Shown one piece after another: positions 1 to 30,234 of a DNA stretch of 30,409 bases. Numbering within the stretch: the first letter of the stretch is position 1; every line of letters starts with the position of its first letter. The translations under genes were made by a program, and so were the position numbers. The notes below the pieces were generated by a model. It had not been told where the DNA came from. It ran no database searches and was given only the letters and a program-made list of their open reading frames with translations. Source of the stretch: a virus. The stretch is taken from positions 1 to 30,409 of IMG/VR virus record IMGVR_UViG_3300032163_000074; one strand, written 5' to 3'.

Positions 1-127
1 CCATGTAGGCTAGGCCTAGGGTTGGACCGCCTGACTGGTCTCGCTAGGGGTACGTTGGTGTAGGCGTGGGGCTAGCTCCTGGAGTAGAAGCGTGCAGGTC
101 GGGGTAGTGATCAGAGTGAGGCCTGCT
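1..127. repeat. Left copy of a perfect 127-bp inverted terminal repeat
   Basis: Bases 1-127 are the exact reverse complement of 30283-30409; identity breaks at base 128 (A here, C expected from the other end). The repeat holds a 10-bp palindrome CTAGGCCTAG at 10-19, three closely spaced TAGG units within 7-19, and one copy of the dispersed motif GGTACGT at 49-55. On the minus strand it encodes the last 36 codons and stop of the lipoprotein gene. It could be a true linear-genome terminal repeat, an inversion-site repeat, or the inner edge of a longer repeat cut by assembly. Confidence 0.97.
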
Positions 128-486
128 AGCCCAGCTCCGCTGGGGTGTGGGGCCAGCTTGGTCCTGATGGTGGTGCCGTCAGGGAGGCTTGGGCAAGTAG
201 CTTCTAGGAGGCAGCTAGACGACAAGGAATAGGGGCAGTCCGTACCGCCGATAGATAGGATGCCTGTTGGGAGGACGAATAGGGTGTCGTCGCCTGTGAC
301 CATGTCCTCAGGACAGGAGCCGGCTTTGTACTCGTGGTGGAGAATGTATTCGCCAAACACAGCCCGGCAGGGGGCCGGTTGCGCCAATGTCAAAGGCTTG
401 GGTGGTAGTGGTGGGTTGGTTTTAGCCGCCGGTGTGGTTGAGCAGGCCGTCAGTGCCAGGAGTGCTGCTAGGAGGGGTCTGTGCAT
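16..486 (-). CDS. Putative small lipoprotein ending inside the terminal repeat
   Basis: A 156-aa product with an N-terminal signal (basic MHR, hydrophobic LLAALLAL) followed by a lipobox-like LTAC. It is therefore predicted to be lipidated on Cys15 and exported. A proline-rich linker (about residues 23-34) leads to a body with several Cys (about 40, 58, 84, 92, 97), suggesting disulfides in the periplasm or outer membrane. No family was recognised. It is the last gene of the leftward cassette and its last 36 codons lie in the inverted repeat, so the same codons occur without a gene start at the right end. A Shine-Dalgarno is only weakly present (GGGAG directly before the ATG). The role could be host-surface modification or lysis; both are guesses. 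Confidence 0.75.
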   Translation of the reverse strand: MHRPLLAALLALTACSTTPAAKTNPPLPPKPLTLAQPAPCRAVFGEYILHHEYKAGSCPEDMVTGDDTLFVLPTGILSIGGTDCPYSLSSSCLLEATCPSLPDGTTIRTKLAPHPSGAGLAGLTLITTPTCTLLLQELAPRLHQRTPSETSQAVQP

Positions 487-511
487 ACTCCCAGTATTGC
501 ACCGGAAGTTG

Positions 512-538
512 GTTACGGAAAGTAACGGAAAGTGTTAC
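512..538. promoter_or_regulatory. Short symmetric repeat in the gap before the lipoprotein gene
   Basis: In the 48-nt gap between two minus-strand genes lies GTTAC-GGAAA-GTAAC-GGAAA-GTGTTAC. The GTTAC/GTAAC arms form a perfect 5-bp inverted repeat and the GGAAA spacer is repeated. It could be a small operator or a weak RNA hairpin controlling the lipoprotein gene. No T-tract follows, so it is not a convincing terminator. Confidence 0.3.
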
Positions 539-702
539 TTTGGGCCAAACTTTTGGTCCTCGAGCGCATCAATGGCCTTGTCAGCCGCGTCGATTACCGC
601 TTGTGGGGGCGCTTCAGGATGGTGCTGAAGCAGTTCTATGATGGCGGCGTATGGGACAAGTGGCAGGAGCAGTCGCAGGGCATCTAGGACGGCGGTTAGC
701 AT
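535..702 (-). CDS. Short hydrophobic-start protein, 55 aa
   Basis: The start codon overlaps the previous stop (TGATG at 704-700), a strong sign of translational coupling, and the frame runs 55 codons to TAA. The N-terminal half (MLTAVLDALRLLLPLVPYAAI) is hydrophobic enough for one membrane-associated helix; the C-terminal half is a charged helix (AIDALEDQKFGPK). No family is recognised. Its place in a lysis-type cassette makes a small membrane accessory (for example an antiholin) possible but unproven. Confidence 0.65.
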   Translation of the reverse strand: MLTAVLDALRLLLPLVPYAAIIELLQHHPEAPPQAVIDAADKAIDALEDQKFGPK

Positions 703-1034
703 CAGATGCCTTTACCGAAGAAGTCTTCGAGGTTGAACATGATGGTTTCCTCGGCTCTGACTTGGTTCATGTGTGCAACGAAGTCATTGACGTCGTCCTC
801 ATTGGTATCAGCCGGGTCAAGCCACTCAGCCATTCGTTCGGCTCGGTCTATGTACTTGGTAGCCAAACCCAACTCATCTCGCTCCCACGCAGTCTCGATA
901 TGGTCTTGTGCACGGCCTTCGGTAACGTGGTTCAGGTGCGTTAACAAGTCTGGGTCCGTAGCAAACATAGCGTAGGCCAGGTCATGAGTTTCGGTAGACA
1001 TGGGAACCTCGTAGACAAGTGTGTGGTGGATCAT
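702..1034 (-). CDS. Hypothetical protein, 110 aa
   Basis: An acidic, mostly helical soluble protein of unknown function. The start at 1034 overlaps the preceding TGA as ATGA, which supports it. A second in-frame ATG at 1001 has a better Shine-Dalgarno (GAGG, 5 nt spacing) and would give a 99-aa form. There are no membrane segments and no Cys. The downstream gene overlaps its stop. Confidence 0.65.
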   Translation of the reverse strand: MIHHTLVYEVPMSTETHDLAYAMFATDPDLLTHLNHVTEGRAQDHIETAWERDELGLATKYIDRAERMAEWLDPADTNEDDVNDFVAHMNQVRAEETIMFNLEDFFGKGI

Positions 1035-1180
1035 TTTCGTTTCTCTCTGCGCTGGTAGCGCTCGTACTCATAAATAGGTTCGAAGGCCATGTCTCCAGGG
1101 TCTTTCAGGCTCTGCATGCTCCGGATGATGAGCAGGGCGCTTCGTAGGGCAGCTCTGAGCAGTTTCAGTTCTTCATCCAA
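1031..1180 (-). CDS. Small TTG-start protein, 49 aa
   Basis: The frame opens with TTG three nucleotides after the previous stop. An AAGGA Shine-Dalgarno lies 8 nt upstream, and the frame ends in an ATGA overlap with the next gene. The product begins DEELKLLRAALRSALLIIRS, an amphipathic helix, and ends in a very basic tail (YERYQRREKRK). No family recognised. The gene is supported by context rather than homology. Confidence 0.55.
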   Translation of the reverse strand: MDEELKLLRAALRSALLIIRSMQSLKDPGDMAFEPIYEYERYQRREKRK

Positions 1181-1183
1181 GCG

Positions 1184-1447
1184 CTATTCCTTTCCAGCAT
1201 CAACTGAGGGATGTTTCGCCCACTCGGCCAGGATACGAGCACGCACCGCTCGGCGGCAATCATCCGCCTCTTGTCTAGTCTTGCTGATCTCCACGCAGAT
1301 GATCTGCTCTGCGCTGTAGGCGGCTACGTCCGGCGCAGGGGTAGCGCAGCCGGTGATGGCTCCAGCTACACCAACGACAGTCGCTGTGGCGATGATAATT
1401 GCGCCAAGGACCAGCACAACCCAGCCAACCCCTTGCTTGGCGGTCAT
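1184..1447 (-). CDS. Putative lipoprotein or spanin-like membrane protein, 87 aa
   Basis: A long hydrophobic N-terminal stretch (about residues 7-33) ends in a lipobox-like ITGC with Cys at about 34. A short extracytoplasmic domain with Cys pairs follows (IICVEISKTR, DDCRRAV) and is predicted helical. The size and layout suit an outer-membrane spanin subunit (Rz1-like) or another small phage lipoprotein; if the Cys is not modified it would be a single-pass membrane protein. Its ATG overlaps the stop of the two-helix membrane gene (ATGA). Context with endolysin and holin-like genes supports a lysis role, but no sequence signature proves it. Confidence 0.7.
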   Translation of the reverse strand: MTAKQGVGWVVLVLGAIIIATATVVGVAGAITGCATPAPDVAAYSAEQIICVEISKTRQEADDCRRAVRARILAEWAKHPSVDAGKE

Positions 1448-1602
1448 GGCAAATCCTTGTGGGTGTCAAGAAGAAACGCGGCAGCGGTTGCCAGAATACC
1501 GAGCAACGTACCCGGCACAGGAAGCCCTTTCCACTGCAACACAACTACCGCCGCAGTAAGGGAGACCACCAACGTGACGTTCATCCAATTGAGATTTTTC
1601 AT
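1444..1602 (-). CDS. Two-helix membrane peptide, holin-like, 52 aa
   Basis: The gene is locked to both neighbours by ATGA overlaps (1599-1602 and 1444-1447). The product has two hydrophobic segments, about residues 9-23 (TLVVSLTAAVVVL) and 30-45 (PGTLLGILATAAAFLL), joined by a short turn, with a charged end DTHKDLP. This is the topology of small class II holins. The reading frame includes one copy of the GGTACGT motif. The holin call rests on topology and the lysis neighbourhood only. Confidence 0.6.
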   Translation of the reverse strand: MKNLNWMNVTLVVSLTAAVVVLQWKGLPVPGTLLGILATAAAFLLDTHKDLP

Positions 1603-1805
1603 CCTAGCTCCAGTTTCAGTTCCAGCACCTCGGCCAGAAGTTGTTGTTTATCGTGTGCAACTTTGATTAGCCTGGCAACAGCGAAGTCGAAGGCTAGGGA
1701 CGCGTTGGGTACATCAACCGTAGCCAGGATCTCCTGGGCTTTGCACGGGGTGCGCCGTAGTGCTTGGGTTAGGTACGTTAGGGCTGAGTGCTCGACTAGG
1801 TTCAT
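1599..1805 (-). CDS. Small helical protein, 68 aa
   Basis: The start overlaps the previous stop as ATGA (1802-1805). The product is almost wholly predicted helix, with a leucine-rich C-terminal end (QQLLAEVLELKLELG) that could form a short coiled coil. There is no membrane segment. Function unknown. Confidence 0.6.
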   Translation of the reverse strand: MNLVEHSALTYLTQALRRTPCKAQEILATVDVPNASLAFDFAVARLIKVAHDKQQLLAEVLELKLELG

Positions 1806-1996
1806 ACCGGACCCCAGACCACACCAAGTCTTTTGAAGGGGCGTTTTTCATACCGCAGTTTACAGAGTGCGTGGTTTTTGGCGTCGTTTAGGGTGTATAT
1901 GCCAGCAAGCCTCTTTACGGTTGTCCATTCAGCGTAGCTGGTCCTGTACCACCGAATATTATCTTCATCTACCATGTAGACTACCGCTCTCATCAT
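1802..1996 (-). CDS. Small basic hypothetical protein, 64 aa
   Basis: I chose the ATG at 1996 because it overlaps the TGA of the preceding gene (ATGA) and has a GAGGGG Shine-Dalgarno just upstream. A second ATG at 1993 is equally placed. The longer open frame reaching back to 2071 would overlap the preceding gene by 79 nt and is unlikely. The product mixes aromatic residues (WYRTSYAEW) with a basic C-terminal half (KLRYEKRPFKRL). No family recognised. Confidence 0.6.
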   Translation of the reverse strand: MMRAVVYMVDEDNIRWYRTSYAEWTTVKRLAGIYTLNDAKNHALCKLRYEKRPFKRLGVVWGPV

Positions 1997-2370
1997 TTGC
2001 CCCTCAATAGGTAGGACATGGTCCAGCCAACTACATTGGATATGACCACGGCTAGTCCTGCGATACCCCACCTAGTCCAGTACTTGAAACTCTCCTGGCT
2101 AGCGTCGCGCTCTGCCTTGATACGGTCTACTCGCTCCTGTTCCGTCTCTTCAACAGTGGCCTCAAGCCCCTCAACCTTTTTAGCAAGCGCTACTACACGC
2201 GCCCTAGAAGCGCGCCGGGTGTCAACCAGGCTATCTCTAATCTCGGCCACTTCTTGCTCAAGTCTGGCTTGACCCTTGACCAGGTTCTGTACCTGTTCAT
2301 ACATGAGCTCCAGTAGGGTACGTTCAGGTAGCTGCTCGTACGATAGTTTTGGTTTTTCATGGTCAGTCAT
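1993..2370 (-). CDS. XhlA-like coiled-coil protein with C-terminal membrane anchor
   Basis: The ATG at 2370 overlaps the oligoribonuclease stop (ATGA) and follows AAGGGG by 5 nt, so the upstream ATG at 2388 is rejected. The 125-aa product has a charged heptad-like helix (about residues 25-95) and one C-terminal membrane span (about 99-119, WGIAGLAVVISNVVGWTMSYL) with a basic tail (RGK). A coiled coil followed by a single C-terminal span is the layout of XhlA-type haemolysin/holin accessory proteins. An i-spanin would have its span at the N-terminus, so that fits less well. The neighbours (endolysin, small membrane peptide) support a role in lysis. Confidence 0.65.
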   Translation of the reverse strand: MTDHEKPKLSYEQLPERTLLELMYEQVQNLVKGQARLEQEVAEIRDSLVDTRRASRARVVALAKKVEGLEATVEETEQERVDRIKAERDASQESFKYWTRWGIAGLAVVISNVVGWTMSYLLRGK

Positions 2371-2897
2371 GACAACCCCTTGAGCCATCGAAAGCAGGAC
2401 TTGGCGTGTTCCACGCTTGCCACGATGTCGTCATGGGCTCGGTGCGCCGGGGTTCGCTTCTCAAGCGGCATCCCGACTGATCGGCAGAAGAGCCATACAG
2501 CAGACACATCAAAGAGCTGATGCGTAAATCGAGCTGCGAGCTTAGGCATGTGGGCTCTAAGAAACCCCATGTCGAAATGCACTGAGCTTCCCGCGAGCAC
2601 CGGCCGCTCGTACCGGTCGAAAGCGGGCAAAACTCGCTCAAGAAGGGCACCCTCCGCCTTAGCTGCTGTACACGACGATCGCTTACACTCATCTAGCAAC
2701 CCGCTCTTGGTGTGCATTTTCAGCACAAACGTGTCCATCTGCTCCGAGCCGTCTGTCTGTAAAACCCACGTACCCAAACTCTTGGTGTCGAACGGGCGGT
2801 CGAAGTTTGCCTCAAGTACAGCCACTTCAAGGATCTTATCCTTGGCTGGGTCCAGTCCTGTGGTTTCTAGGTCCAGCCAAAAGATCTTGCGGGTCAT
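2367..2897 (-). CDS. orn: Oligoribonuclease-like DEDDh 3'-5' exonuclease
   Basis: The 176-aa product matches the length and motif order of oligoribonuclease. Exo I is DLETTGLD with D9 and E11. HTKSGLL at about 62-68 corresponds to HTASGL of E. coli Orn. Exo II is SVHFDMGFL with D109, followed by MPKLAARFTHQLFDVS, equivalent to the Orn segment MPELEAYFHYRYLDVS. Exo III is HRAHDD with H152 and D157. All four acidic residues and the His are present, so it should be active on 2-5 nt RNA, or on short DNA. It starts in an ATGA overlap with the endolysin gene. An RNA-turnover enzyme between endolysin and holin-type genes is unusual; it may recycle nucleotides or clear pGpG-type dinucleotides. Confidence 0.9.
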   Translation of the reverse strand: MTRKIFWLDLETTGLDPAKDKILEVAVLEANFDRPFDTKSLGTWVLQTDGSEQMDTFVLKMHTKSGLLDECKRSSCTAAKAEGALLERVLPAFDRYERPVLAGSSVHFDMGFLRAHMPKLAARFTHQLFDVSAVWLFCRSVGMPLEKRTPAHRAHDDIVASVEHAKSCFRWLKGLS

Positions 2898-3538
2898 GCG
2901 CTGCTTTCTGATCCGTCAGACGTAGGATCGGTTGGTCCTAATTCATGGTTGGGGGCTTTATCATCAAACCAACCTACCAGCGCAGCTTCGATTTGTGGTT
3001 GAAGCGTGGACAAGGACTTACCGTAGTCGGCTATGTTGCTGGCTGCATCTTGATGTACCCCAGTGTAGTATCTGGAGTTGTACATCTCTTTGGCAAGGTC
3101 CTGGACACCGCAGTCCGCGATCGCCGAGGCCAGGCATCTGGGGCGCTGTTTGTATAGCATCTTTACCAGGTATTCTGCGCCGTCAACGTCGTACTTGAAG
3201 GAGGCGAAGTAGGTGTAGTACCAACCCTGTTTCGGTGCGCTGTCTCGGTGCAGCGCCAGGCCGGGTTGATCTAGGAGTTTCTTAGCCTTGGGTTCGTCTT
3301 TGGGTTCGCCTGGTTTCAGTCCGGCCTGCATATACTTGGCGATCTCGGACAGTTTCAGCGGCCGGGCCGTGCACGCCCCCCAGTTATGCTCCCCAGGCCA
3401 CGCATCTCCACACCTGGTCTCGTGCTCAGCCACACATAGCGCGTAGATGATAACCGACCTGGGTGGTTCGGTTGTGAACTGCCGCAGGTAACCGTCGAGG
3501 CATGCTTGGGCTTTAGTAAGCATTCGTGCATTGTCCAC
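2894..3538 (-). CDS. Putative endolysin of the lysozyme/glucosaminidase fold
   Basis: The 214-aa product lacks a signal peptide. It has a catalytic-Glu-type segment CVAEHETRCGDAW, then HNWGAC (like the NNWG of glucosaminidases), and a later YYTYFASFKYDVDGAEYLV motif resembling the substrate-groove region of lysozyme-superfamily murein hydrolases. The C-terminal 30 residues are acidic and probably disordered. I chose GTG at 3538 because GGAGG lies 8 nt upstream; the longer frame from 3595 would overlap the divergent terminase gene. It is first in the leftward cassette. The exact bond cleaved cannot be told from sequence alone. Confidence 0.65.
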   Translation of the reverse strand: MDNARMLTKAQACLDGYLRQFTTEPPRSVIIYALCVAEHETRCGDAWPGEHNWGACTARPLKLSEIAKYMQAGLKPGEPKDEPKAKKLLDQPGLALHRDSAPKQGWYYTYFASFKYDVDGAEYLVKMLYKQRPRCLASAIADCGVQDLAKEMYNSRYYTGVHQDAASNIADYGKSLSTLQPQIEAALVGWFDDKAPNHELGPTDPTSDGSESSA

Positions 3539-3546
3539 GGGTAACG

Positions 3547-3573
3547 CCTCCAGGGAGGAGTATACTCGGTGCA
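3547..3573. promoter_or_regulatory. Divergent promoter with palindromic -10 box
   Basis: The short region between the leftward endolysin gene and the rightward terminase gene contains AGTATACT (3559-3566), an 8-bp palindrome giving TATACT as a -10 box on both strands. It ends 7 nt before the terminase ATG. Next to it lies CCTCC-AG-GGAGG (3547-3558), which provides the leftward gene with a well-spaced Shine-Dalgarno. The rightward GGAGG sits 15 nt before the ATG, too far for normal use. No good -35 was found for either direction. Confidence 0.4.
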
Positions 3574-4896
3574 ATGAGGCAAAGCGAGCTATCACTGGTC
3601 GAGTTTATCCCCGCGGTAAACCCTCGTATGACTGCGCCTTACCATATGAAAGCGTTCGCAGAGTTGCTAGAGGGGGCGGATGGCGGAAGCGTGAGGGCAA
3701 TGTGTAGCATGCCGATCCGGCACTACAAGACCGAAACAGTCAAGCACGCAATCGCGTGGCTGCTTCTGCGTAATCCGGAACTGCGCATCATCTTCATGAC
3801 GCACTCCGCCCTGTACGCCCAGAATCGTGGGCGAGAGATACGAGACTTGTGTATGCAACTTGGTGTACGCGTGCGCGACGGACACAGCACTATCTCTGAG
3901 TGGCGCACTGACGAGGGTGGGGGAGTTCGGGCCATGAGCGCGCAGCAGTCTGCGCTTGGCGGCGACGTTGACATCCTGGTGGTTGATGACCCTTTCGAGA
4001 GCCAGGAAGCCGCAGATTCTGGGGACGTGCGTCAGATTGTTGACGACACGATAGCGTTTTACACGGCGCGCTTGAGCCGCGGCGGATCGGTGTTCCTGGT
4101 CATGTCTCGGTTCCACAACGACGATGCTATCGGTCGCCGCCAACGTAGGACGGCGGTGAAGTGGGAGTACATCCACCACCGGGCCATTATCGACGAGGGG
4201 TTAGAAACCGAGCAAGCTCTAGCTCCCGAGGTACGTACCCTTGAGGAGCTACACGCCATACGGGCTGAGCTCAAGGAATCCGATCCAACAGAACGTACCT
4301 GGTGGGGGCAGTTCCAGAACGAACCGCGCACGGATATGGGCGACCTGTTCAAGGCGCCTGCACGATACGAGCAGCTACCGGAGTGGCCGGGGTTCAGGGA
4401 CTTCATTGGTGTTGATATGGCATACAGCACCGGTAAGCGTTCGGACTGGTTCGCCCTGGTAGCCGTCCGAGCGTGGCGCGGTCAGTTCTTCGTACGTGAG
4501 GTTCAGAGGCTCAAGGCCGACCTAGGTGACTTGGAGCTGACCATACGCACGGCCTGGGAACGTTACGGTAGGTGTCCTGTGTACTCATACATGTCTGGTC
4601 CCGAAAAGGGGGCAGCTCATTACTTGAATGAGAAGGGTATACCTATCTACGTAATGCCAGCTAGATACGACAAACGTACGAGGGCGCAGAAGACCATCAA
4701 CCTGTGGAACGTTGGTAAGGTCATGGTGCCACAACACGCGCCTTGGGTGGAAGGGTTTCTGTCTAGAATACTTGCATTCCGAGGTGTGGAGGGGGATGAT
4801 GACGATGAGGTAGACGCCTTAGTTAGCGCACATGATGGGGGAGTTTTCTCGTCCGTTACTGCGCCTCAACGACTAGGGAAGCCTTTGTTTGGATGA
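3574..4896 (+). CDS. terL: Terminase large subunit
   Basis: This is the ATP-driven DNA packaging motor with headful or end-cutting nuclease. In the 440-aa product, PIRHYKTE (about 47-54) is the Walker-A-like P-loop, with Tyr where most relatives have Gly. ILVVDD (134-139) is Walker B. MSRFHNDD (about 177-184) matches the coupling motif usually written TRWHxDD. The C-terminal RNase-H-like nuclease starts at FIGVDMAYS (D281) and ends with the acidic DDDDEVDALVSA. The domain order suits the TIGR01630-type terminases. The ATG at 3574 is preferred over GTG at 3526 because homologous terminases begin close to it. It lacks a properly spaced Shine-Dalgarno and may be leaderless. No small subunit is recognisable. 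Confidence 0.93.
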   Translation: MRQSELSLVEFIPAVNPRMTAPYHMKAFAELLEGADGGSVRAMCSMPIRHYKTETVKHAIAWLLLRNPELRIIFMTHSALYAQNRGREIRDLCMQLGVRVRDGHSTISEWRTDEGGGVRAMSAQQSALGGDVDILVVDDPFESQEAADSGDVRQIVDDTIAFYTARLSRGGSVFLVMSRFHNDDAIGRRQRRTAVKWEYIHHRAIIDEGLETEQALAPEVRTLEELHAIRAELKESDPTERTWWGQFQNEPRTDMGDLFKAPARYEQLPEWPGFRDFIGVDMAYSTGKRSDWFALVAVRAWRGQFFVREVQRLKADLGDLELTIRTAWERYGRCPVYSYMSGPEKGAAHYLNEKGIPIYVMPARYDKRTRAQKTINLWNVGKVMVPQHAPWVEGFLSRILAFRGVEGDDDDEVDALVSAHDGGVFSSVTAPQRLGKPLFG

Positions 4897-6732: not shown

Positions 6733-7334
6733 TCGTCAATTGCGGTGCGTATAATGATATCGACTTCTTGGGGGGACTGCCCTATCAGACGGCTAACACA
6801 ATTGACCTGACCGGCATTACGGGTGCGCTGCCTCAGGAGTATTACCAGACATGCCGCTACGGTACAGCGACATTTGGTTATGTGATACCTGGGCTTATTG
6901 CCGGCGCCACGTACGATTTTAGGCTTCATTTTGCCGATCCCTACTTTGCCGCCCCCGGCAACCGCGTGGGGAAGTTCTCGGTAAACGGCACAGTTGTTGC
7001 AGCAGCGTATGACATTGTCGCTGCCGCGGGGGCAATAAACAAAGCGTCTGTTCTGTCGTTTAGTGCCGAGGCTAACACGGATGGTGCGCTGTTCTTGGTA
7101 ATTGACCCTATAATCAGTAATCCCCTAGTGTGTGCAATAGAGCTGAATGCAGCTACACCTATTCCTGGAACTCCCCCGTCAACAACAGAACAAAAAACAG
7201 CCTGGGTCAACTTCGCCGCGCAATGCTACGCAGAATTCCTGCATCAGGGCCTGCCTACGGATCGGGCGGGGGCTCAGGCAGTAAAGGCAGCAGACCTACT
7301 TCTGAGCGGCTATAGGTCGAGGTGGACCACATGA
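6729..7334 (+). CDS. Malectin-like carbohydrate-binding domain protein in the head operon
   Basis: The 201-aa product starts at a GTG that overlaps the portal stop (GTGA). Residues 2 to about 140 look like a malectin-type β-sandwich: IVNCGAYNDIDFLGG near the start, YYQTCRYGTATFGYVIPGL, then TYDFRLHFADPYF and GKFSVNGTVV, the usual order of ligand-loop strands. The C-terminal about 50 residues form a separate helical tail (CYAEFLHQGL, AADLLLSGYRSRW). The slot after the portal is where Mu-like phages carry a MuF-type minor head protein, which is absent here. A capsid-associated glycan binder is a reasonable inference; an internal role cannot be excluded. Confidence 0.75.
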   Translation: MIVNCGAYNDIDFLGGLPYQTANTIDLTGITGALPQEYYQTCRYGTATFGYVIPGLIAGATYDFRLHFADPYFAAPGNRVGKFSVNGTVVAAAYDIVAAAGAINKASVLSFSAEANTDGALFLVIDPIISNPLVCAIELNAATPIPGTPPSTTEQKTAWVNFAAQCYAEFLHQGLPTDRAGAQAVKAADLLLSGYRSRWTT

Positions 7335-8959
7335 AATTCAGAGAGACACCCAAAGCTGGAGAGGCCCTGGCGATCTACCGGGACGCTATGTTCTGGGACC
7401 AGGCCCTAACCGTACCCCCGAACGAGATGTGTGGTGCGGCTGAGGTGGTGTACTTGCGGGGGTCTCTTGAGCACCACCCAACCGAGGGGTGTGACTCATA
7501 CGACGCGCTAAAGGCTCGTCTTTCCTTAGCATTCGCTAATCGCGAATCAAAGGTGGTCGTACTGCGCATAGACTCCCCCGGAGGTGTGGTAAGCGGGCTC
7601 AACGAGACGGTTTACGCAATGCGCAAAATGAGCAAAGACGCCGGCAAGCCGCTAATCGCCTATGTGGATGAACTTTCGGCCAGCGCGGCTTATGCCATCG
7701 CCTGCGGCTGTGAGGAGATTTTCGTTCCCCCGTCGGGAATCTGCGGCAGCGTCGGTGTGATCAGCACCATGTATGACCAGGTTAGTGCTGACAAGAAGCA
7801 GGGGGTGAATTTCGTCACCATCACTAGCGGGGCGCGTAAGGCAGACGGTCACCCCCACGTCGCTATCAGTCCTGAAGCTGTTTCTGCCGAACAAAAGCGG
7901 GTGAATCAGCTGGCTCAGCAGTTCTACAAGATCGTGTCTAGTGCTCGAGGAATCGGCATCAGCGCCATCAAAGGACTTCAGGCGGGGATCTTCTTGGGTC
8001 CAGAGGCGGTCAAACTGGGACTTGCGGACGGTGTGCTGGGATGGGATACTCTTCTCGAAACGATTTCACTTGTCTACGGCGTGCCCAATGGTGGACAATC
8101 AAACGCTGTCGCTAAACCTACTGAGGAAACGGATATGTCGCTAACCCTGACCGCACTCATAAGCAAGCTCGAGTCGAAGATCAAGGCGGAGAAGGACCCG
8201 AAACGGCTCCTCTCCTTCAAGGCCGAACTCGAGGCGGCCAAGACCATCAAGAAGTCCGTCGAAAAGTACGAGGAGTCCTCAGACGAGGGCGATGAGGAAG
8301 ACGACGAGGAGGAAGAAGCCAAAGGCAACGAGACCGACCGCAAGGAAGAAGACTCGAAAGACGACGGCGACGACTCTGGCGACTCCAAAGATGACGATTC
8401 GAAAGACGAGGATGACGAGGAGGACGATGAGGAAGAGGCTGCCGCGGCTAAAGCCGTTCTGGCTCTCGTTCGTAAGCAGACGGGGAAGAAGTCCTCGGCC
8501 TCTGTTCTTGGTGCTCTCCGAGCCGCTTTTGACAAGTCTGCCAAGTACGACGCCACGGCGAAAGACGTTGCGAAACTCAAGGCCGACGCAGCTAAGTCCC
8601 GAGTGACCTCATTGGTCTCGCAGGGCCTCAAGGCGGGAAAGCTCACCCCTAAGGCTGCGGAGTGGCTCAAGGCTCAACCCGAAGCGACGGTAAAGAGTTA
8701 CATCGAGGCCATGCCCAAGGACGCGGTTGTTACCACAGAAGAGACGGTTCGGGTTCCCGGTAAGGGGCTCAACACCTACGAAATGGGGGTCTCGTCAGGG
8801 AACGTACCTGGAGACTTTTCGGGCCTCTCGGCCGAAGAGGCGAAGGTTCTTGAGATGGGCTATGCCAGTGCAGTTTCGGCAGGCATGAAGATCACCAAGG
8901 AGCAATTTCTCAACAACTGGCGACAGGCGCAGAATGGCGCCGGGATGAAGAGGTACTAG
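7331..8959 (+). CDS. S49-family head maturation protease fused to scaffold
   Basis: This 542-aa protein resembles lambda gpC. It has an N-terminal serine protease of the SppA/ClpP fold, then an acidic scaffold-like tail. Visible protease elements are VVLRIDSPGGVVSG, the nucleophile region DELSASAAYAIA (Ser at about 118) and TSGARKADGHP (Lys at about 170) for the Ser-Lys dyad. From about residue 269 the sequence becomes helical, and around 305-380 it is dominated by Asp/Glu runs. The ATG at 7331 overlaps the malectin-gene stop as ATGA. An internal in-frame start probably yields a separate scaffold. The end of the protein (LSAEEAKVLEMGYASAVSAG) is helical and may bind capsid. Confidence 0.88.
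   Translation: MKFRETPKAGEALAIYRDAMFWDQALTVPPNEMCGAAEVVYLRGSLEHHPTEGCDSYDALKARLSLAFANRESKVVVLRIDSPGGVVSGLNETVYAMRKMSKDAGKPLIAYVDELSASAAYAIACGCEEIFVPPSGICGSVGVISTMYDQVSADKKQGVNFVTITSGARKADGHPHVAISPEAVSAEQKRVNQLAQQFYKIVSSARGIGISAIKGLQAGIFLGPEAVKLGLADGVLGWDTLLETISLVYGVPNGGQSNAVAKPTEETDMSLTLTALISKLESKIKAEKDPKRLLSFKAELEAAKTIKKSVEKYEESSDEGDEEDDEEEEAKGNETDRKEEDSKDDGDDSGDSKDDDSKDEDDEEDDEEEAAAAKAVLALVRKQTGKKSSASVLGALRAAFDKSAKYDATAKDVAKLKADAAKSRVTSLVSQGLKAGKLTPKAAEWLKAQPEATVKSYIEAMPKDAVVTTEETVRVPGKGLNTYEMGVSSGNVPGDFSGLSAEEAKVLEMGYASAVSAGMKITKEQFLNNWRQAQNGAGMKRY
8135..8959 (+). CDS. Nested in-frame capsid scaffold (Nu3-like), alternative start
   Basis: An ATG inside the protease gene at 8135, in the same frame, is preceded by GAGGA with 7 nt spacing. 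It would produce a 274-aa protein starting MSLTLTALISKLESK. It holds only the helical, acidic scaffold part, with no protease domain. Lambda and many relatives make a scaffold this way (gpNu3 within gpC). The arrangement is inferred from the Shine-Dalgarno, the domain boundary and that precedent. Confidence 0.6.
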   Translation: MSLTLTALISKLESKIKAEKDPKRLLSFKAELEAAKTIKKSVEKYEESSDEGDEEDDEEEEAKGNETDRKEEDSKDDGDDSGDSKDDDSKDEDDEEDDEEEAAAAKAVLALVRKQTGKKSSASVLGALRAAFDKSAKYDATAKDVAKLKADAAKSRVTSLVSQGLKAGKLTPKAAEWLKAQPEATVKSYIEAMPKDAVVTTEETVRVPGKGLNTYEMGVSSGNVPGDFSGLSAEEAKVLEMGYASAVSAGMKITKEQFLNNWRQAQNGAGMKRY

Positions 8960-8963
8960 GATC

Positions 8964-9422
8964 ATGGCACTCACCAAAGACGCTAAAATTACTCGGTTTG
9001 GGGTCCCGTCCCTACACGAACCGCTGAGCATCCCGCTCCACGCAAGCACCACGGTGTACGCTGGGTCGTTTGCTCTTACAGCCACTGCCGACGGACTCGT
9101 CAAGAACTCGGCTTCGCCTGCCAGCACCGATACGGTCTGGGGTGTTATCCAACGTCAGGTTACCTGCGGATCGTCTTCGGCTTCGGTTAGCGCCGAGATC
9201 GAGACGGGTTCGTTTTACTTCGCCGCGGGCGCCAATTCCGATGCTCTTGTTCAGGCCGATATCGGAAAGGTTGTGTACGTCATCGATGAGGTCACTGTCG
9301 GTAAGACCACCGGTAGCGGCACACGCCCCGTTGCTGGGACGCTTCTGAATATCGACACTACACTACCTGGTGGGTATGCCGTAAAGGTAGGCAGCGCACC
9401 TCCTGGCACTGGGAGCCCGTAA
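8964..9422 (+). CDS. Putative capsid decoration/stabilisation protein
   Basis: The 152-aa product is β-rich, with features reminiscent of DUF2190-type capsid cement proteins: an opening MALTKDAKITRFG, then YAGSFALTATADGLVKN, and later GKVVYVIDEVTVG. It stands directly before the major capsid gene, the usual slot for a decoration protein. AGGA lies very close to the ATG (2 nt); GAGG further up may help. It has no signal peptide. Its role on the capsid surface is inferred from position and composition. Confidence 0.65.
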   Translation: MALTKDAKITRFGVPSLHEPLSIPLHASTTVYAGSFALTATADGLVKNSASPASTDTVWGVIQRQVTCGSSSASVSAEIETGSFYFAAGANSDALVQADIGKVVYVIDEVTVGKTTGSGTRPVAGTLLNIDTTLPGGYAVKVGSAPPGTGSP

Positions 9423-9425
9423 CAA

Positions 9426-10409
9426 ATGATCACCGACTCGTCGCTTCAGTTTTTCTTTACCAACCTCAACACCATGTTGGGCGAGGCGTACACCACGACG
9501 CCAATCGTCCACGACAAGTTCGCCTCTGTTATCCCGGTTACCAGTGAAGACTGGAAAGCGGGCTGGACTGGGCGAATGGATAAGATGCGCGTTTGGGCTG
9601 GTCCCCGCGTCACGGAAGAGCCGGCACCGCAGACGTACACGGTGTCGATGATTCCTTTCGAGCAGACCCGGAAGATTGACCGGTTCCGCCTTGATGACGA
9701 CACGATGGGCCTGTACTACCGCATGCTTCCCGACATGGCTGTTCAGGCGAAACGGCTCCCGGACTTCCAAATCCGAGACCTTCTCCAGAACCTCAACGCC
9801 TATGTGGGTATTCGCCAGAACGGCCTCGACGGGCTCACGCACTTCAACACGGCGCACCCGGTTGACTTGTTTGACGCAGGTAAGGGAACGTACTGTAACG
9901 ACTTCACCGGCGGCGGCGTGTCTATCGGCGGCGTGACTGTCGGAGGTGCGATGAGCCCAACGGCAGTTAGCACACTCTGGACGTACATGAGTGGGTACAA
10001 AGCGGAAGACGGGGAACCGCTCGGCATTGAACCTAACATGATCCTCGCACCATCCACGATGAAACTTGAGGTTGACCTCATCCTCAAGTCTACGTTCTTC
10101 GCGCCCCCCAGCTGGGGTACGGTTACGGGGCAAGTCGGTGCGGCAGATAACCCCCTACAACGCTTCGGTATGGAGCCGCTGTACTGGCCCCTCCTGAACA
10201 ATGCCCAAGGTACGAACTGGTACATGCTGGACACTAATCATGCGATGAAGCCGTTCACGTGGCTTCAACGAACGGCGCCTGTTTTCCAATACCTCATTGA
10301 TGAGAACAGCGCTCCGGTGTTCAACGAGCACTCGTACGTCTACGGCGCCTGGGCGCGAGGCTCGGCCGCGTGGTCGTTTGCCTGGCTCTCGGCTCGTTCG
10401 GGCCCGTAG
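9426..10409 (+). CDS. Major capsid protein, Mu gpT-like (HK97 fold expected)
   Basis: The 327-aa product resembles Mu gpT-type head subunits: an N-terminal helix (LQFFFTNLNTMLGEAY), the EDWKAGWTG segment, a DRFRLDDDTMGLYYRML region matching the 'DDxxGxY' part of the family, and NLNAYVGIRQNGLDGLTHFN near the middle. The length is close to gpT (about 305 aa). No clear Shine-Dalgarno precedes the ATG, which lies 3 nt after the previous stop, so it probably relies on coupling. There is no N-terminal prosequence resembling an HK97 delta domain, consistent with a separate scaffold. Confidence 0.85.
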   Translation: MITDSSLQFFFTNLNTMLGEAYTTTPIVHDKFASVIPVTSEDWKAGWTGRMDKMRVWAGPRVTEEPAPQTYTVSMIPFEQTRKIDRFRLDDDTMGLYYRMLPDMAVQAKRLPDFQIRDLLQNLNAYVGIRQNGLDGLTHFNTAHPVDLFDAGKGTYCNDFTGGGVSIGGVTVGGAMSPTAVSTLWTYMSGYKAEDGEPLGIEPNMILAPSTMKLEVDLILKSTFFAPPSWGTVTGQVGAADNPLQRFGMEPLYWPLLNNAQGTNWYMLDTNHAMKPFTWLQRTAPVFQYLIDENSAPVFNEHSYVYGAWARGSAAWSFAWLSARSGP

Positions 10410-13704: not shown

Positions 13705-14181
13705 ATGAGCACCATTGCCTATCCACTGATCAACGGCGTTCGACACTCTTTCTCGAGTATCGAGCTCAAGATCGCCGGTCAGATCTACGTCGGTTTCAAA
13801 TCTATCAACTACTCGCGCAAGCGTAGTCGCACGATGGTCCGTGGTAACTCACCTGATCCGTTGGGCAAGACCCGCGGTACGAACGAGTATACGGCGGACT
13901 GTGAGATCTTCTTGGCTGAGTGGAATCTGCTCCAGTCTCAGCTTCAGAATCTGGGCGCCGGCTACGGTGACCAGTTCTTCAACATCGTCGTTACCTACAC
14001 CGAGAACGGCTTCGACACTGTCTCTGACACGATCGTGGCGTGTACCCTAGACACAACGGATGTGAGTCAGTCCGAAGGGGCGGATCCGCTGGTACGCAAG
14101 TTCGAACTCAACCCGCTGAAGATTTTATTCAACGGGCTTGATGATCTTGCAAACCCACTTACCGGAGCTCAAACGAGCTAG
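13705..14181 (+). CDS. Tail tube protein
   Basis: The 158-aa product follows GGAG with good spacing. It starts MSTIAYPLINGVRHSFSSIE and contains RSRTMVRGNSPDPLGKTRG and GYGDQFFNIVVTYTEN, a pattern seen in tube proteins of Mu/P2-type myoviruses. It would form the inner tube inside the sheath. Its last 57 nt overlap, on the opposite strand, the 3' end of the HNH endonuclease gene. Confidence 0.75.
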   Translation: MSTIAYPLINGVRHSFSSIELKIAGQIYVGFKSINYSRKRSRTMVRGNSPDPLGKTRGTNEYTADCEIFLAEWNLLQSQLQNLGAGYGDQFFNIVVTYTENGFDTVSDTIVACTLDTTDVSQSEGADPLVRKFELNPLKILFNGLDDLANPLTGAQTS

Positions 14182-14517
14182 TATCAGGTACCGGATAGCC
14201 TGTAACAGGCGTACTACACTGTCGTTGAAATGACCCAGACCGACGTTGCATTCATTACATATTACACCCCGCACATACCCACTAGTGTGACAGTGGTCAA
14301 TTGTAGCCCTGAGGGCATCCAACCCTCGATTACATAGCTTACACTTCCCACCCTGTTTCTGAATGATGGTATAAAGGTTTTTAGAGGACATACCGTAGCG
14401 TCGCTTCAGGTTAGTTTCACGGTCGTACGCTACTCGACATTTTCTGCATTGTCCGCTTTTGACGTAGTGTTCTTCCAGAAGCCCACAGTACTTACAGATC
14501 TTTACAATCTTAGGCAT
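14125..14517 (-). CDS. HNH homing-type endonuclease, endonuclease VII family
   Basis: The 130-aa product has two N-terminal CxxC pairs (CKYC, CRKC), then QGGKCKLC, the active-site TIDHCHTSGYVRG and VICNECNVGLGHFND, the standard order of the endonuclease VII-like HNH family. It sits alone, reversed, between tube and chaperone genes, like many selfish HNH genes in phages. The family normally ends after AIRYL; the extra LARLSSGKW-type tail is read antisense from the tube gene. GC is low: 26 of 60 bases in 14341-14400. A promoter lies directly upstream. The 14182-14611 gap in plus-strand genes is explained by this insertion. Confidence 0.88.
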   Translation of the reverse strand: MPKIVKICKYCGLLEEHYVKSGQCRKCRVAYDRETNLKRRYGMSSKNLYTIIQKQGGKCKLCNRGLDALRATIDHCHTSGYVRGVICNECNVGLGHFNDSVVRLLQAIRYLILARLSSGKWVCKIIKPVE

Positions 14518-26068: not shown

Positions 26069-26317
26069 CTACCGGGGGTCCTCTTCCCCAAGAGCCCGCT
26101 CTGCAGCCGCCCCGAGGGCGGTAGCGAGTCGGGAAAGCTCAAACTTCTTCAAGGCCATGCCCTTCTGAGTTGGCTTCCACTCCCCCTCAATCTCGGTCCA
26201 GACCCGGAGGTCTAGGAAGGGGTTGCCTTGGTACTCGCGCAAAGCAAGAACCAACTTGGTGGGAGCCTTACCATCGAACACTTTACGCACGTTTTCCCAT
26301 AACACCTGATCACTCAT
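26069..26317 (-). CDS. PC4-like single-stranded DNA-binding protein
   Basis: The ATG at 26317 follows AGGA with 5 nt spacing and overlaps the exonuclease stop by 8 nt; the upstream ATG at 26341 is less likely. The 82-aa product has the PC4/p15 pattern: LALREYQGNPFLDLRVWTE, then EGEWKPTQKGMALKK, followed by a C-terminal helix (LSRLATALGAAAERAL). PC4-fold proteins bind ssDNA as dimers and act in transcription, repair and recombination. Next to a RecE-like nuclease it probably serves as the phage ssDNA-binding partner. It is the last gene before the terminator. Confidence 0.75.
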   Translation of the reverse strand: MSDQVLWENVRKVFDGKAPTKLVLALREYQGNPFLDLRVWTEIEGEWKPTQKGMALKKFELSRLATALGAAAERALGEEDPR

Positions 26318-27071
26318 CGCTTTCCTCTTCGCTTTCTGCATATGTGTTGAACCACCCAGGGGCGTCTAGGTCCAACACCTGGTCAGAGTAGCCTGGCCAT
26401 TCGTTGGTACGTTCGCATTCCCTGAGCCTATCGAGCCACTCGTTGCATGAGATTGCGCCAGCAACGATCAACTCGTTGGTAAGACGCAATACCGTAACAG
26501 CGTGTGGCGCTTTAGTCTCTACTCCGAGGATGTAGTATCCGGCAACGGGGTGTTCGTTATGTACGGCCCCCCTTCCGTACCAGAGCAGCTGGGCGTGGTA
26601 GTACATTCGGATACAGTGGACCATGAACTTGGTTGGGCTAGCGTCGGCGGTGACTTTGACGTCTGAAACGAACCCGTCTCCGAGTACGTCCAGTCGTCCT
26701 GCACACTCGACGCCGGTAATTGAATCCTTCCACGCAAGCTCATGCTCTTTGAGCCCCAGGAGATAAGGTGCCGCGGTCTTATTGGTTCGCAAAGCCTCGC
26801 CAGCACCTGCAGCATCCTTGTACTCAGAGGTAGTGAAGATTTCAATTCCGACGTGTTCGGCTTTGAACTGCTTCCACTCGCCCCCCCGCCGGTCGCCGTC
26901 GTACACCGCGTACGAGCCACCCAGCGCGATCTTATGCACCAGAGTACCAACACGCATAGCACGCGTTTCATTACGGGCCCCCTCACACGCACTCTTGTAA
27001 TGAAGCGGCGATAGAGACATCTGCTTTAGGTTGCTGAAGTGAACAGCCCCATCAGCGTTTCGGATCTTCAA
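26310..27071 (-). CDS. RecE-like PDDEXK exonuclease, TTG start
   Basis: A TTG at 27071 overlaps the previous TGA (TTGA) and follows GGGG, giving a 253-aa product; the longer frame from 27158 overlaps the membrane peptide gene. Visible motifs are RVGTLVHKIALGG (H at about 46), DRRGGEWKQFKAE, HELAWKD (E at about 111), GRLDVLGDGFVSDVKVT (D128, D137, K139, the PDDEXK core) and YYHAQLLWYG. This matches exonuclease VIII-like enzymes that resect dsDNA 5'-3' for single-strand annealing recombination. No RecT or Beta annealase is visible in the window. Confidence 0.85.
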   Translation of the reverse strand: MKIRNADGAVHFSNLKQMSLSPLHYKSACEGARNETRAMRVGTLVHKIALGGSYAVYDGDRRGGEWKQFKAEHVGIEIFTTSEYKDAAGAGEALRTNKTAAPYLLGLKEHELAWKDSITGVECAGRLDVLGDGFVSDVKVTADASPTKFMVHCIRMYYHAQLLWYGRGAVHNEHPVAGYYILGVETKAPHAVTVLRLTNELIVAGAISCNEWLDRLRECERTNEWPGYSDQVLDLDAPGWFNTYAESEEESDE

Positions 27072-27196
27072 AACATCCCCACAATCTGGACGGCAACCCA
27101 CGTGAACATGAAGATGATCCAAAGCGCCACAGCCACAGCACCTACACAGAAGATACAAAACACAGCTGCATCACTCGTCTTCTTCCTCACCCACAT
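27068..27196 (-). CDS. Small single-pass membrane protein, 42 aa
   Basis: The ATG follows GAGGAGG with 6 nt spacing. The product begins MWVRKKTSD and then has one strongly hydrophobic helix (about residues 10-41, AAVFCIFCVGAVAVALWIIF and onward). The positive N-terminus points to N-in orientation. It overlaps the upstream gene by 26 nt and the exonuclease TTG by 4 nt. Function unknown; a superinfection or membrane-stress peptide is one possibility. Confidence 0.65.
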   Translation of the reverse strand: MWVRKKTSDAAVFCIFCVGAVAVALWIIFMFTWVAVQIVGMF

Positions 27197-27380
27197 GATC
27201 GTCCTCCTCGTCTTCGTCTGCTTCTCGGTCTGACGCAAGAGACAGCGACTCAATACACTCGCAGCAGTACATGGGTGCGGTGAGGGCGTGCATAGCGGGC
27301 ACCGGGGCACCACACAACGCCTCATCTGAGTCCTCGCAGGCGTGCCACTGTCCGTCGTCGCAGGGGTGCCAAGTGATCAT
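27171..27380 (-). CDS. Cys/His-rich acidic-tailed small protein, 69 aa
   Basis: The start overlaps the metalloprotease stop (ATGA). The N-terminal part has WHPCDDGQWHACEDSDEALCG and a later YCCECIESL, enough Cys and His for a small zinc site. The C-terminal 20 residues are nearly all Asp/Glu. No family recognised. The nucleic-acid-mimic look of the tail is suggestive only. Confidence 0.6.
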   Translation of the reverse strand: MITWHPCDDGQWHACEDSDEALCGAPVPAMHALTAPMYCCECIESLSLASDREADEDEEDDHVGEEEDE

Positions 27381-27913
27381 TTAGCCCTCCGATACCACCG
27401 AACACGATCATACTTGGGAATGAACCCACCCTCTAACGTATCCCTGTTGATGAACTTGTGCATTACTGACACAACTGACGTGTCCTCAGTGTGTCCTAGT
27501 CCCAGAGCATGCCCCAGCTCATGAATCATGACCAAACGTTCCCAGTAGGGACCAGACACTCGGCAGCTCCGGTACAAGACGATAAGATCATACTGAGAAG
27601 AGTACTGCCCACACAACTCTCCCGGCCCTGAGTCCGCCACTTGAACTCGGAGCTCCCTAACCACGCCGGGTCTGGGGAATAGCTGACGGCATATGCGTAT
27701 ACCCGTAGACTTGGACCACACCGCAAATGCCTCGCCGAAGAGCTGCTCCTGGTCCTTTGTCAAACCAGCGTAATGCACATACACCATGTCGGCGCAGAAC
27801 TCGTCTGAACCCGCCAACGCAATAGGGTCAAAACCCTCAGCAACCTTGGGCGTAGGGGTGGCACAACACGCACCCATGAACAGCACCAAACCCGTAATGA
27901 TTCCTAGCTTCAC
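27377..27913 (-). CDS. Metzincin-type zinc metalloprotease with lipoprotein signal
   Basis: The start is GTG 27913 in a GTGA overlap with GGAGG 8 nt ahead. The 178-aa product begins VKLGIITGLVLFMGACCATP, a signal peptide with a lipobox-like MGAC. The mature part carries HELGHALGLGH (about 131-141), the full HExxHxxGxxH zinc motif, and VMHKF about 10 residues later as the Met-turn. This places it with matrixin-like metzincins, which cleave proteins outside the cytoplasm. Four further Cys may form disulfides. It would be anchored in the host envelope. Expression within the recombination operon suggests early timing. No prodomain with a cysteine switch is evident. Confidence 0.85.
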   Translation of the reverse strand: MKLGIITGLVLFMGACCATPTPKVAEGFDPIALAGSDEFCADMVYVHYAGLTKDQEQLFGEAFAVWSKSTGIRICRQLFPRPGVVRELRVQVADSGPGELCGQYSSQYDLIVLYRSCRVSGPYWERLVMIHELGHALGLGHTEDTSVVSVMHKFINRDTLEGGFIPKYDRVRWYRRAK

Positions 27914-28167
27914 TTGAGCATCCTCCACCATTCTGGCCCGTGCCGTTTCTTCATCAACCGTTTAGCCCAGTCTTCACCACACTTGGCGTTGGCCTCAGTT
28001 AGTTCAGCCCACAACGTGGCCGACCTCTCTGCTGCCCTGAGACAGGTCTCACTACAGGTGTGTACTGAGCGGGTAAGCATCAGCCAACCACCGGGCAAAT
28101 AGTACCAGCCACCACACAACGTACGTACGTCTCTGATCTGGTGACACCATATGCACTCGATCCTCAC
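27910..28167 (-). CDS. Putative small zinc-binding protein, 85 aa
   Basis: The GTG at 28167 overlaps the previous TGA (GTGA). The product has IECIWCHQIRDVRTLCGGWYYLPGGW followed by SVHTCSETCLRAAER: two CxxC/CxxxC pairs that could hold one or two zinc ions in a treble-clef-like fold. A basic helical C-terminus follows (WAKRLMKKRHGPEWW). This suggests nucleic-acid or protein binding. No named family. Confidence 0.6.
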   Translation of the reverse strand: MRIECIWCHQIRDVRTLCGGWYYLPGGWLMLTRSVHTCSETCLRAAERSATLWAELTEANAKCGEDWAKRLMKKRHGPEWWRMLK

Positions 28168-28289
28168 GGCCGCCACCAAACACGACAGCCCCTACGACCT
28201 AGCCAGAACTGGTTAGCTTCTAACTCGGTCCTGAACCGAGCCACCTCAACCCAAAGTCCGGTCAGCCCCAGACCCTCAACTACGAACAT
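28164..28289 (-). CDS. Very small basic protein, 41 aa
   Basis: The frame starts in a TGATG overlap with the preceding stop and ends in a GTGA overlap with the next gene, leaving no gap. The product contains VEVARFRTELEANQFWLGRR and ends in WWRP; it is helical and basic with many aromatics. No family. Support is positional. Confidence 0.55.
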   Translation of the reverse strand: MFVVEGLGLTGLWVEVARFRTELEANQFWLGRRGCRVWWRP

Positions 28290-29239: not shown

Positions 29240-29782
29240 TCAGCCAGAAACATTCAGAACTGTTCCTAACGAAGAGAAAACCCGTTTGAATTTAGGTGTG
29301 ACATCCACCGTGCCAGTTACATACACGATCGCATTGGAATGCGACGGAGCCATACCGGGTAGGCCATCAGGCCCAATGAAGCGGATGCGCTTGGCGGGCA
29401 CACAGAGGGGAAACTCTCCTATAGCGGGCCACACCTTGTTCTGCGTGCTCTGCAGCGCCTCTACACTGAAGCACATGAACATAGCGTGCTTGAGTTTACC
29501 CTCAGCCCTGTGCTGCATAAGGCGGCCCCAGAACAGCCCTGTCTTGGACTTGTTGCCAACCTTACTGCCAGGGGGGTTGACCCACACCGTAATGTCCTTG
29601 GGCCATGGTCGGGTCAAGCCATCATCCCCCTCGTCATAATAGGTTGTAGCCATAACCCGCTGGTTACCAAACACGTCTGAGGCGGGGTCAAACCCTATAG
29701 GCCCAAGCACAGTACGAGCAGCTATCAGAATGTTGCCGGGGGTATACCACAGGTCTGTCCTACTAGAATGCTGGATGTTCAT
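29240..29782 (-). CDS. dam: Phage N6-adenine DNA methyltransferase (Dam family)
   Basis: The 180-aa product shows the phage DNA_N-6-adenine_MTase pattern: WYTPGNILIAARTVLG (12-27), FDPASDVFGNQ (31-41), TTYYDEGDDGLTRPW and WVNPPGSK with the catalytic NPPG at 69-72 (NPPY or DPPY in most relatives). It methylates adenine, probably within a short palindrome, to protect phage DNA from restriction. The substitution Gly for Tyr at the fourth catalytic position could lower activity. The start overlaps the transglycosylase stop (ATGA). Confidence 0.88.
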   Translation of the reverse strand: MNIQHSSRTDLWYTPGNILIAARTVLGPIGFDPASDVFGNQRVMATTYYDEGDDGLTRPWPKDITVWVNPPGSKVGNKSKTGLFWGRLMQHRAEGKLKHAMFMCFSVEALQSTQNKVWPAIGEFPLCVPAKRIRFIGPDGLPGMAPSHSNAIVYVTGTVDVTPKFKRVFSSLGTVLNVSG

Positions 29783-30234
29783 TCCACCACCTCCGCCGCG
29801 GCTGCCAATAGCTCCGCCTTAGCCCATCGTGCGGCAGCCAATCGCCTAGCCCCTCTATTGCGACAGCCTCCAGCATACGGAGCCAAGGGGGAGTCTATGC
29901 ATGTGGGAGCACTTACGTAGAGATGACCCAGAGCTACGACAGCCCCAACCACGGCATCGTGCTCGACTCCAGGGACGCCCATAATCTGAAAGGCTCCCTT
30001 AGACCGCCCAGAATCGCCAAGAGCGTCCTGGTGGAATCTAGACTCCTCCCAGGCCGTTTCTACCAACACCGCTACGGTGAGTCGCTCTGTCCAGCCGGCG
30101 GGTAGCTTGCCTCGATCTACAGCGAACGCAATACCTGTTGCCACCGCCAAAGCATCCCCAGTCTGTTTAGCTTGAGGGTGAATCAGATCCATCATGGCCA
30201 GGCAAAGTTTGAACAGAACAGTTATGTGTCCCAT
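29779..30234 (-). CDS. Putative lytic transglycosylase, first gene of right arm
   Basis: The 151-aa product follows GGGAGG with 5 nt spacing. The core is AVLVETAWEESRFHQDALGD (Glu63/64 as catalytic acid) followed by SGRSKGAFQIMG, the ESxF...GxFQI pattern of soluble lytic transglycosylases. Cys at 112 and 123 flank SPLAPYAGGC. A hydrophobic N-terminus (ITVLFKLCLAMM) may be a weak export signal. It would cleave murein at entry or lysis, and would be the second murein hydrolase besides the left-arm endolysin. No clear promoter is seen between it and the right repeat (30235-30282). Confidence 0.72.
   Translation of the reverse strand: MGHITVLFKLCLAMMDLIHPQAKQTGDALAVATGIAFAVDRGKLPAGWTERLTVAVLVETAWEESRFHQDALGDSGRSKGAFQIMGVPGVEHDAVVGAVVALGHLYVSAPTCIDSPLAPYAGGCRNRGARRLAAARWAKAELLAAAAEVVE

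Follow-up and report, generated by a model that had tools for sequence, protein, structure and literature searches.

The closest experimentally tested precedent for the protease treated here is Mtz of Listeria monocytogenes (LMRG_00713), a phage-derived secreted metzincin encoded in the mtz-tim pair. Mtz cuts the neighbouring TIMP-like lipoprotein Tim, and the two proteins sensitise Listeria to holin-lysin phage lysis, with virion release up about 5-fold (PMC8235301). In prophages mtz-tim is an accessory pair located downstream of the holin-lysin genes; the lysis effect was seen in a Gram-positive bacterium and requires Tim, while Mtz itself is SPI-secreted and unlipidated (PMC8235301).

The window analysed here is a whole IMG/VR virus record (IMGVR_UViG_3300032163_000074; 30,409 bases) from an uncultivated tailed phage with a contractile tail. 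It encodes a protein that resembles Mtz in its features: both are secreted metzincins with an HExxHxxGxxH/D site and a Met-turn that are encoded in phage loci, and Mtz is linked to lysis. They differ in that Mtz is SPI-secreted, acts in a Gram-positive host and has a TIMP-like lipoprotein encoded next door, whereas the phage protease carries a lipobox itself and no TIMP-like partner was recognised for it.

Genome Organization and Probable Host

The plus strand carries genes for a Mu-type portal, an S49-type head protease, capsid, sheath and baseplate, while the lysis region and other genes are found on the minus strand. The virion genes are collinear with those of Myxococcus phage Mx4 (OK085710; identity of 34% for the portal, 29% for the capsid, 30% for the sheath and 45% for the baseplate) and with prophage-like loci of two genomes from the phylum of a Myxococcales record. 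Of 282 genomes in that phylum, 21 contain portal relatives, as against 2 of 191 from the phylum of a Bacteriovoracaceae record (Fisher 0.0009); the comparison covers these two phyla only, and the second is represented by smaller genomes. Because the portal and virion relatives are concentrated in the phylum of the Myxococcales record, the host is probably myxobacteria-like, which is a lean from two phyla and no proof. No integrase was noted among the window proteins scanned.

The Protease Gene and Its Lipoprotein Signal

The features of the gene and its product are the following:

27377-27913, minus strand: matrixin-family (M10-like) metzincin lipoprotein, 178 aa, GTG start (PF00413, ribosome-binding site, overlaps, AlphaFold2 model)
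27866-27913, minus strand: signal sequence through lipobox Cys16 (LFMGAC) (direct reading and hydropathy)
27491-27523, minus strand: HELGHALGLGH zinc-binding motif, residues 131-141 (direct reading; invariant in alignment A1)
27461-27463, minus strand: Met of the Met-turn, residue 151 (SVM) (invariant in alignment A1, at least 90% in alignment A2)

The longest open reading frame extends from an ATG at 27931 (27377-27931, minus strand, 184 aa). Translation more likely begins at the GTG at 27913, which is preceded by a GGAGG ribosome-binding site (ggtGGAGGatgctcaaGTG), while none is found at the ATG. The start of the gene shares GTGA with the upstream gene and its stop shares ATGA with the downstream one; these overlaps at both ends place the protease in a single run of genes read together. 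Its GC3 (0.61) lies within the 0.54 to 0.77 of the neighbouring genes.

The amino-terminal sequence (MKLGIITGLVLFMGAC) has the traits of a bacterial lipoprotein with a Sec/SPII-type signal: a charged n-region (K2), a hydrophobic stretch (mean hydropathy of 1.87 over 19 residues) and a lipobox MGAC with Cys16. It fits the PS51257-type lipoprotein pattern. The protein is thus probably secreted and is predicted to be lipidated at Cys16. An earlier note on this DNA had placed a gene at 27377-27913 and had called its product a secreted, probably lipidated protease with the full HExxHxxGxxH motif and a Met-turn, a description that the start site, the predicted signal and the alignments presented below uphold.

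Catalytic Domain and Fold

The metzincin zinc site HExxHxxGxxH/D is present in the form HELGHALGLGH (131-141), with a Met-turn downstream of it. The motif and Met151 are common to the eight rows of alignment A1; in alignment A2 (37 rows) residues H131 to G138 and H141 do not vary, and at least 90% of the rows have M151. The best Pfam match is the matrixin family (PF00413; 31.6 bits for a cut-off of 24), astacin (PF01400) being also just above its cut-off (23 for 22.5 bits), and phmmer matched MMP-14 and MMP-12 with E about 1e-3. Matrixins carry Ser or Thr after the third His, and the phage protein has Thr at this position (GHT). A cysteine-switch pro-domain is typical of vertebrate-type proMMPs. 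It is missing from the phage protein, in which about 24 residues separate the lipobox from the start of the catalytic domain, and PF00413 has no such requirement; the protein was therefore not classed with the vertebrate-type MMPs.

The AlphaFold2 model computed from the 37 rows has a mean pLDDT of 71.7, with core blocks mostly between 76 and 90 and low values in the signal and the carboxyl-terminus. The best solved structures identified by Foldseek are MMPs (3kej_A; E 6.1e-7, TM 0.48). VIA-align superimposed the model on MMP-11 (1hv5_A) with a Z of 14.6 and an rmsd of 2.6 over 130 residues, other MMPs being tied within 1. The identity to solved structures is about 15 to 21%. The structural comparison with matrixins suggested in the earlier note, which had made its reading depend on a metzincin fold, therefore turned out in its favour. 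The motif, the Met-turn and the fold are shared with the matrixin and MMP catalytic domains (PF00413, M10; 1hv5 of MMP-11, 4in9 of karilysin); the phage protein differs from MMPs by having a lipobox and neither a pro-domain nor a C-terminal domain. Sequence and model together support a minimal matrixin-family zinc protease with intact catalytic residues, whose activity is predicted. Unlike the gene of a virion or head-maturation protease, that of the matrixin does not lie inside the head module: the head protease is the S49-like product of 7322-8959 (phrog_53), and the matrixin gene lies on the opposite strand about 18 kb away.

The Gene Run around the Protease

The minus-strand run that includes the protease gene is composed of a mixture of functions:

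29779-30234, minus strand: probable SLT-type peptidoglycan hydrolase heading the run (via homologue L124)
29240-29782, minus strand: Dam-like methyltransferase (PF05869, 33.2 bits)
27910-28179, minus strand: upstream neighbour of the protease, Cys-rich, 89 aa, overlapping the protease start (GTGA); no convincing family match
27171-27380, minus strand: downstream neighbour, 69 aa, Cys-rich with an acidic tail, ATGA overlap and GGAGG site; no convincing family match
26310-27158, minus strand: exonuclease VIII/DUF3799-like recombination nuclease (PF12684, 80.2 bits; phrog_412, E 1.1e-44)
26069-26341, minus strand: PC4-like protein adjoining the exonuclease (PF02229, 38.5 bits)

Upstream of the protease, the gene at 29779-30234 is the first of the run and is followed by the Dam-like methylase gene, small genes coding unknowns and the Cys-rich 89-aa gene. 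Neither immediate neighbour of the protease has a lipobox when inspected by eye. The product of 29779-30234 has no Pfam match of its own, searches of its own genome with PF01464 and PF01832 were empty, and its AlphaFold2 model from the single sequence was uninformative (pLDDT 40.8). Its homologue L124 (E 1.7e-8, 40% identity) passes PF01464 (SLT) at 45.4 bits; the SLT identity is thus probable and comes from this homologue only. The earlier note had described the protease as coupled to recombination genes instead of virion or lysis genes. The first half of this statement is borne out by the exonuclease VIII-like and PC4-like genes downstream. The second half needs revision because the SLT match of L124 implies that the run is not purely devoted to recombination, and a viral matrixin gene also occurs in a lysis-like cassette (see the next section). 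The presence of the Dam-like, exonuclease and PC4 genes suggests early expression of the run.

The Lysis Region and a Matrixin in a Lysis-Like Cassette

The lysis region of the phage was assigned to 16-3595 from its small lipoproteins and its position:

1184-1447, minus strand: small lipoprotein with the motif CVE...R.E...CR..V (family found in L095 and in the endolysin regions of L129 and L130)
16-486, minus strand: further lipoprotein with lipobox LTAC, close to the left end (weak Pfam match to a LysC-like (Rz1-like) family, E 0.34)

No endolysin was confirmed in 16-3595 by a library match. The product of 2894-3595, which by eye looked like a glucosaminidase-like endolysin, was not supported as such by Pfam, PHROGs or the comparison with L130, whose score was reached in 290 of 3000 shuffles. 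The small lipoprotein 1184-1447 could be an o-spanin or another kind of lysis lipoprotein; neither Pfam nor NCBIfam places it in a family above cut-off, and no phage record matches it. Homologues were found in 3 of the 282 genomes (E up to 0.01; one match with an internal stop). Two of the genomes of the Myxococcales-record phylum (L129 and L130) have them beside proteins matching endolysin families of Pfam and PHROGs, with no matrixin seen in the 8-10 kb inspected.

The same family is found on the IMG/VR contig L095 (IMGVR_UViG_3300046791_000318), which also codes a matrixin lipoprotein (7965-8474; PF00413, 31.4 bits). A 653-aa gene precedes the latter, a tail fibre by eye with no PHROG match. 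The matrixin gene overlaps at its end a gene for a coiled-coil/TM protein (8465-8908), followed, again with overlapping ends, by the homologue of 1184-1447 (8905-9117; score of 70 versus 24 +/- 4.7 for shuffled sequences, reached in 0 of 20,000 shuffles). Further small genes lead to 9461-10171, a GH24-type lysozyme by eye with no Pfam or PHROG match. The matrixin lipoprotein of L095, as read from the sequence, thus heads a lysis-like cassette that includes a homologue of the phage's own lysis-region lipoprotein. Homology between the coiled-coil/TM proteins of the window (1993-2388) and of L095 was not clear, 51 of 2000 shuffles reaching the score. Among nine records inspected (eight viral ones with matrixins and Mx4) the small lipoprotein family is present only in L095's own. 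A DNA-pattern scan of viral contigs for the small lipoprotein gave 0 contigs, a false negative that was discounted as the pattern does match L095 there, and the A3 scan, with poor patterns, found no pairing of a matrixin with the small lipoprotein.

Matrixins in Other Viruses and in Host Genomes

The protease has no clear relative in 50,697 phage records. The only two matches (E 0.4) are in L055 (CAKLQH020000026.1), labelled Acinetobacter phage MD-2021a, whose stretch codes two matrixins and contains dnaK, grpE and purK, genes which give it the look of a bacterial chromosome. No PHROG family rises above noise, a plasmid search gave three weak matches, and viral contigs queried with one protein at a time (protease, exonuclease or portal) yielded no confirmed close relative. 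Phage Mx4 shows no protease relative in the phage-collection search, though its virion module is related. The nearest relative found shares a 52% stretch over 42 residues, and the matrixin alignment has 25% identity over about 130 columns.

The coded motif was matched by 53 IMG/VR contigs, viral according to that database, many of which have Phe in place of Leu as the coded pattern allows. Eight of nine candidates scanned pass the matrixin cut-off (L091 fails). BFVD contains matrixin-like folds in insect viruses and in several tailed phages, including an uncultured Caudovirales phage (A0A6J5P205), Lactobacillus phage 3-521, Maribacter phage Colly_1 and Tenacibaculum phage pT24; they share the fold with the phage protease at 14 to 17% identity. 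Few phage genes of this kind were known to the earlier note, which puts it too strongly: the 53 contigs, the BFVD entries and Listeria Mtz (PMC8235301) show that phage matrixins are rare yet previously known; the present case adds lipid-anchored forms to a scattered set.

The search for lipoproteins with the motif that the same note advised did find them, as a minority of viral matrixins. Lipoprotein-signal starts occur in 6 of 57 viral motif ORFs and in 9 of 1219 other ORFs of the same loci under the same rule (Fisher 2e-5), or in 4 of 50 and 6 of 514, respectively, when only non-overlapping ORFs are counted (p 0.008). The 57 ORFs omit four loci that repeat a contig (L011, L014, L049, L020), ORFs shorter than 100 or longer than 420 aa and off-rule motif variants, and keep the near-identical pairs L093/L094 and L010/L017. 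Three more products (L003, L043, L097) look like lipoproteins by eye, yet fail the lipobox rule. The lipobox matrixins of contigs L098, L095, L009, L030, L035 and L052 are, like the phage protease, small and predicted to be secreted. They differ from it in gene context and have about 22 to 30% identity to it for the members of A2 (L030 is outside the alignment). The neighbours of viral matrixin genes vary: such genes are found next to a DNA polymerase (L098), an opposite-strand terminase (L097) or a tail-spike-like gene (L020). Judged from their sequences, lipid-anchored matrixins recur in viral contigs.

In the Myxococcales-record phylum, only six of the 282 genomes match the protease, and weakly (best E 1.9e-5), so that no recent host donor is seen or named. 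All 21 genomes with portal relatives code matrixins (1 to 11 each) but none of the 21 has one near the portal; only in G180 is a matrixin on the portal's contig, at a nearest distance of about 870 kb, and split draft contigs could hide some. The lack of a matrixin near the portal in these genomes marks the protease, by sequence comparison, as an accessory phage gene.

Possible Function of the Protease

The best explanation, which we hold tentatively and somewhat short of an even chance, is that of an envelope-anchored accessory matrixin assisting lysis and virion release. The protease would leave the cytoplasm via Sec, receive its lipid at Cys16 and stay anchored in the envelope of the host; if the latter is Gram-negative and myxobacteria-like, the outer membrane is the probable site. 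There it would cut envelope proteins. The envelope weakened in this way may allow peptidoglycan hydrolases and other lysis proteins to release virions more completely, as in the case of Listeria Mtz. Assistance to lysis is put first because of the Mtz-Tim precedent, the L095 cassette and the SLT-type gene of the run; the endolysin-family neighbours of the small lipoprotein's homologues in L129 and L130 also speak for it. Its weak points are the location of the protease gene outside the lysis region 16-3595, in a run with the Dam-like, exonuclease and PC4 genes, and the inconsistent context of matrixin genes on the other viral contigs (L098, L097, L020). The dependence of the Listeria effect on Tim, its Gram-positive setting, the unlipidated state of Mtz and the missing library match of the L095 lysozyme-like gene count against it as well. 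The earlier note had offered assisted release and a block to superinfection as two ideas; of these, assisted release is the better supported, through the Listeria precedent and L095.

A block to superinfection would operate by an early surface lipoprotein trimming the phage receptor and thereby keeping related phages from adsorbing. The lipobox, the accessory character of the gene and its strand run with early-type genes are consistent with this mechanism, but the papers brought up by a literature search on the subject appear to include none on phage genes of such kind; we regard it as doubtful, and breakdown of the envelope as more likely. It is unlikely, too, that the gene is a lysogenic-conversion (moron) gene of host origin whose protease serves the host, for instance in feeding or predation, the phage being a mere carrier. 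Matrixins coded by every one of the 21 genomes with portal relatives would suit such an origin, as would the position of those relatives in host genomes, which makes temperate relatives probable; against it stand the weakness of the closest matches in the phylum, the overlap of the protease gene with both neighbours and the lack of an integrase among the scanned proteins.

Two other explanations appear less probable still. A regulatory or processing protease that matures or releases another phage lipoprotein (e.g., 1184-1447 or 16-486) would parallel the cleavage of Tim by Mtz (PMC8235301), and a matrixin lipoprotein does coexist with a small lipoprotein of one family in both L095 and the phage. 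We find it improbable, as that family is also present in the endolysin regions of two genomes with no matrixin seen in the 8-10 kb inspected and, among the nine records, is confined to L095's. Very improbable is an inactive protease or a non-functional gene: the lack of a relative closer than the 42-residue stretch could be read that way, but the zinc ligands, the catalytic Glu and the Met-turn are complete, a ribosome-binding site and gene overlaps are present, and the GC3 is similar to that of the neighbours.

An extension of the lysis-assistance reading, speculative and quite unlikely as it stands, is that in some phages of myxobacteria-like hosts an outer-membrane-anchored matrixin acts as a proteolytic lysis factor, cutting outer membrane-peptidoglycan tethers or a phage lysis lipoprotein, beside spanins or replacing them. 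L095 would be its clearest example. If the enzyme acts in lysis, proteolysis would be added to the means by which phages breach the Gram-negative envelope, and small single-domain proteases would be offered for testing; receptor trimming, if true, would amount to superinfection exclusion by means of an enzyme. Either reading is testable by expressing one 178-aa gene.

Other Features of the Window

Exact inverted repeats of 127 bp are found at the contig ends (1-127 and 30283-30409), covering the C-terminal part of lipoprotein gene 16-486. They may be an assembly effect instead of true terminal repeats, because assemblers often use a k-mer length of 127 and the repeat overlaps this gene. The lysis-side run includes an oligoribonuclease/DnaQ-like exonuclease gene (2367-2897, minus strand; PF00929, 50.3 bits), whose NCBIfam oligoribonuclease score of 105.5 bits is slightly below the cut-off of 106. 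Within the plus-strand tail module, a minus-strand ORF (14125-14517) codes a Cys-rich protein of 130 aa that resembles by eye a homing endonuclease of the HNH/endonuclease VII type.
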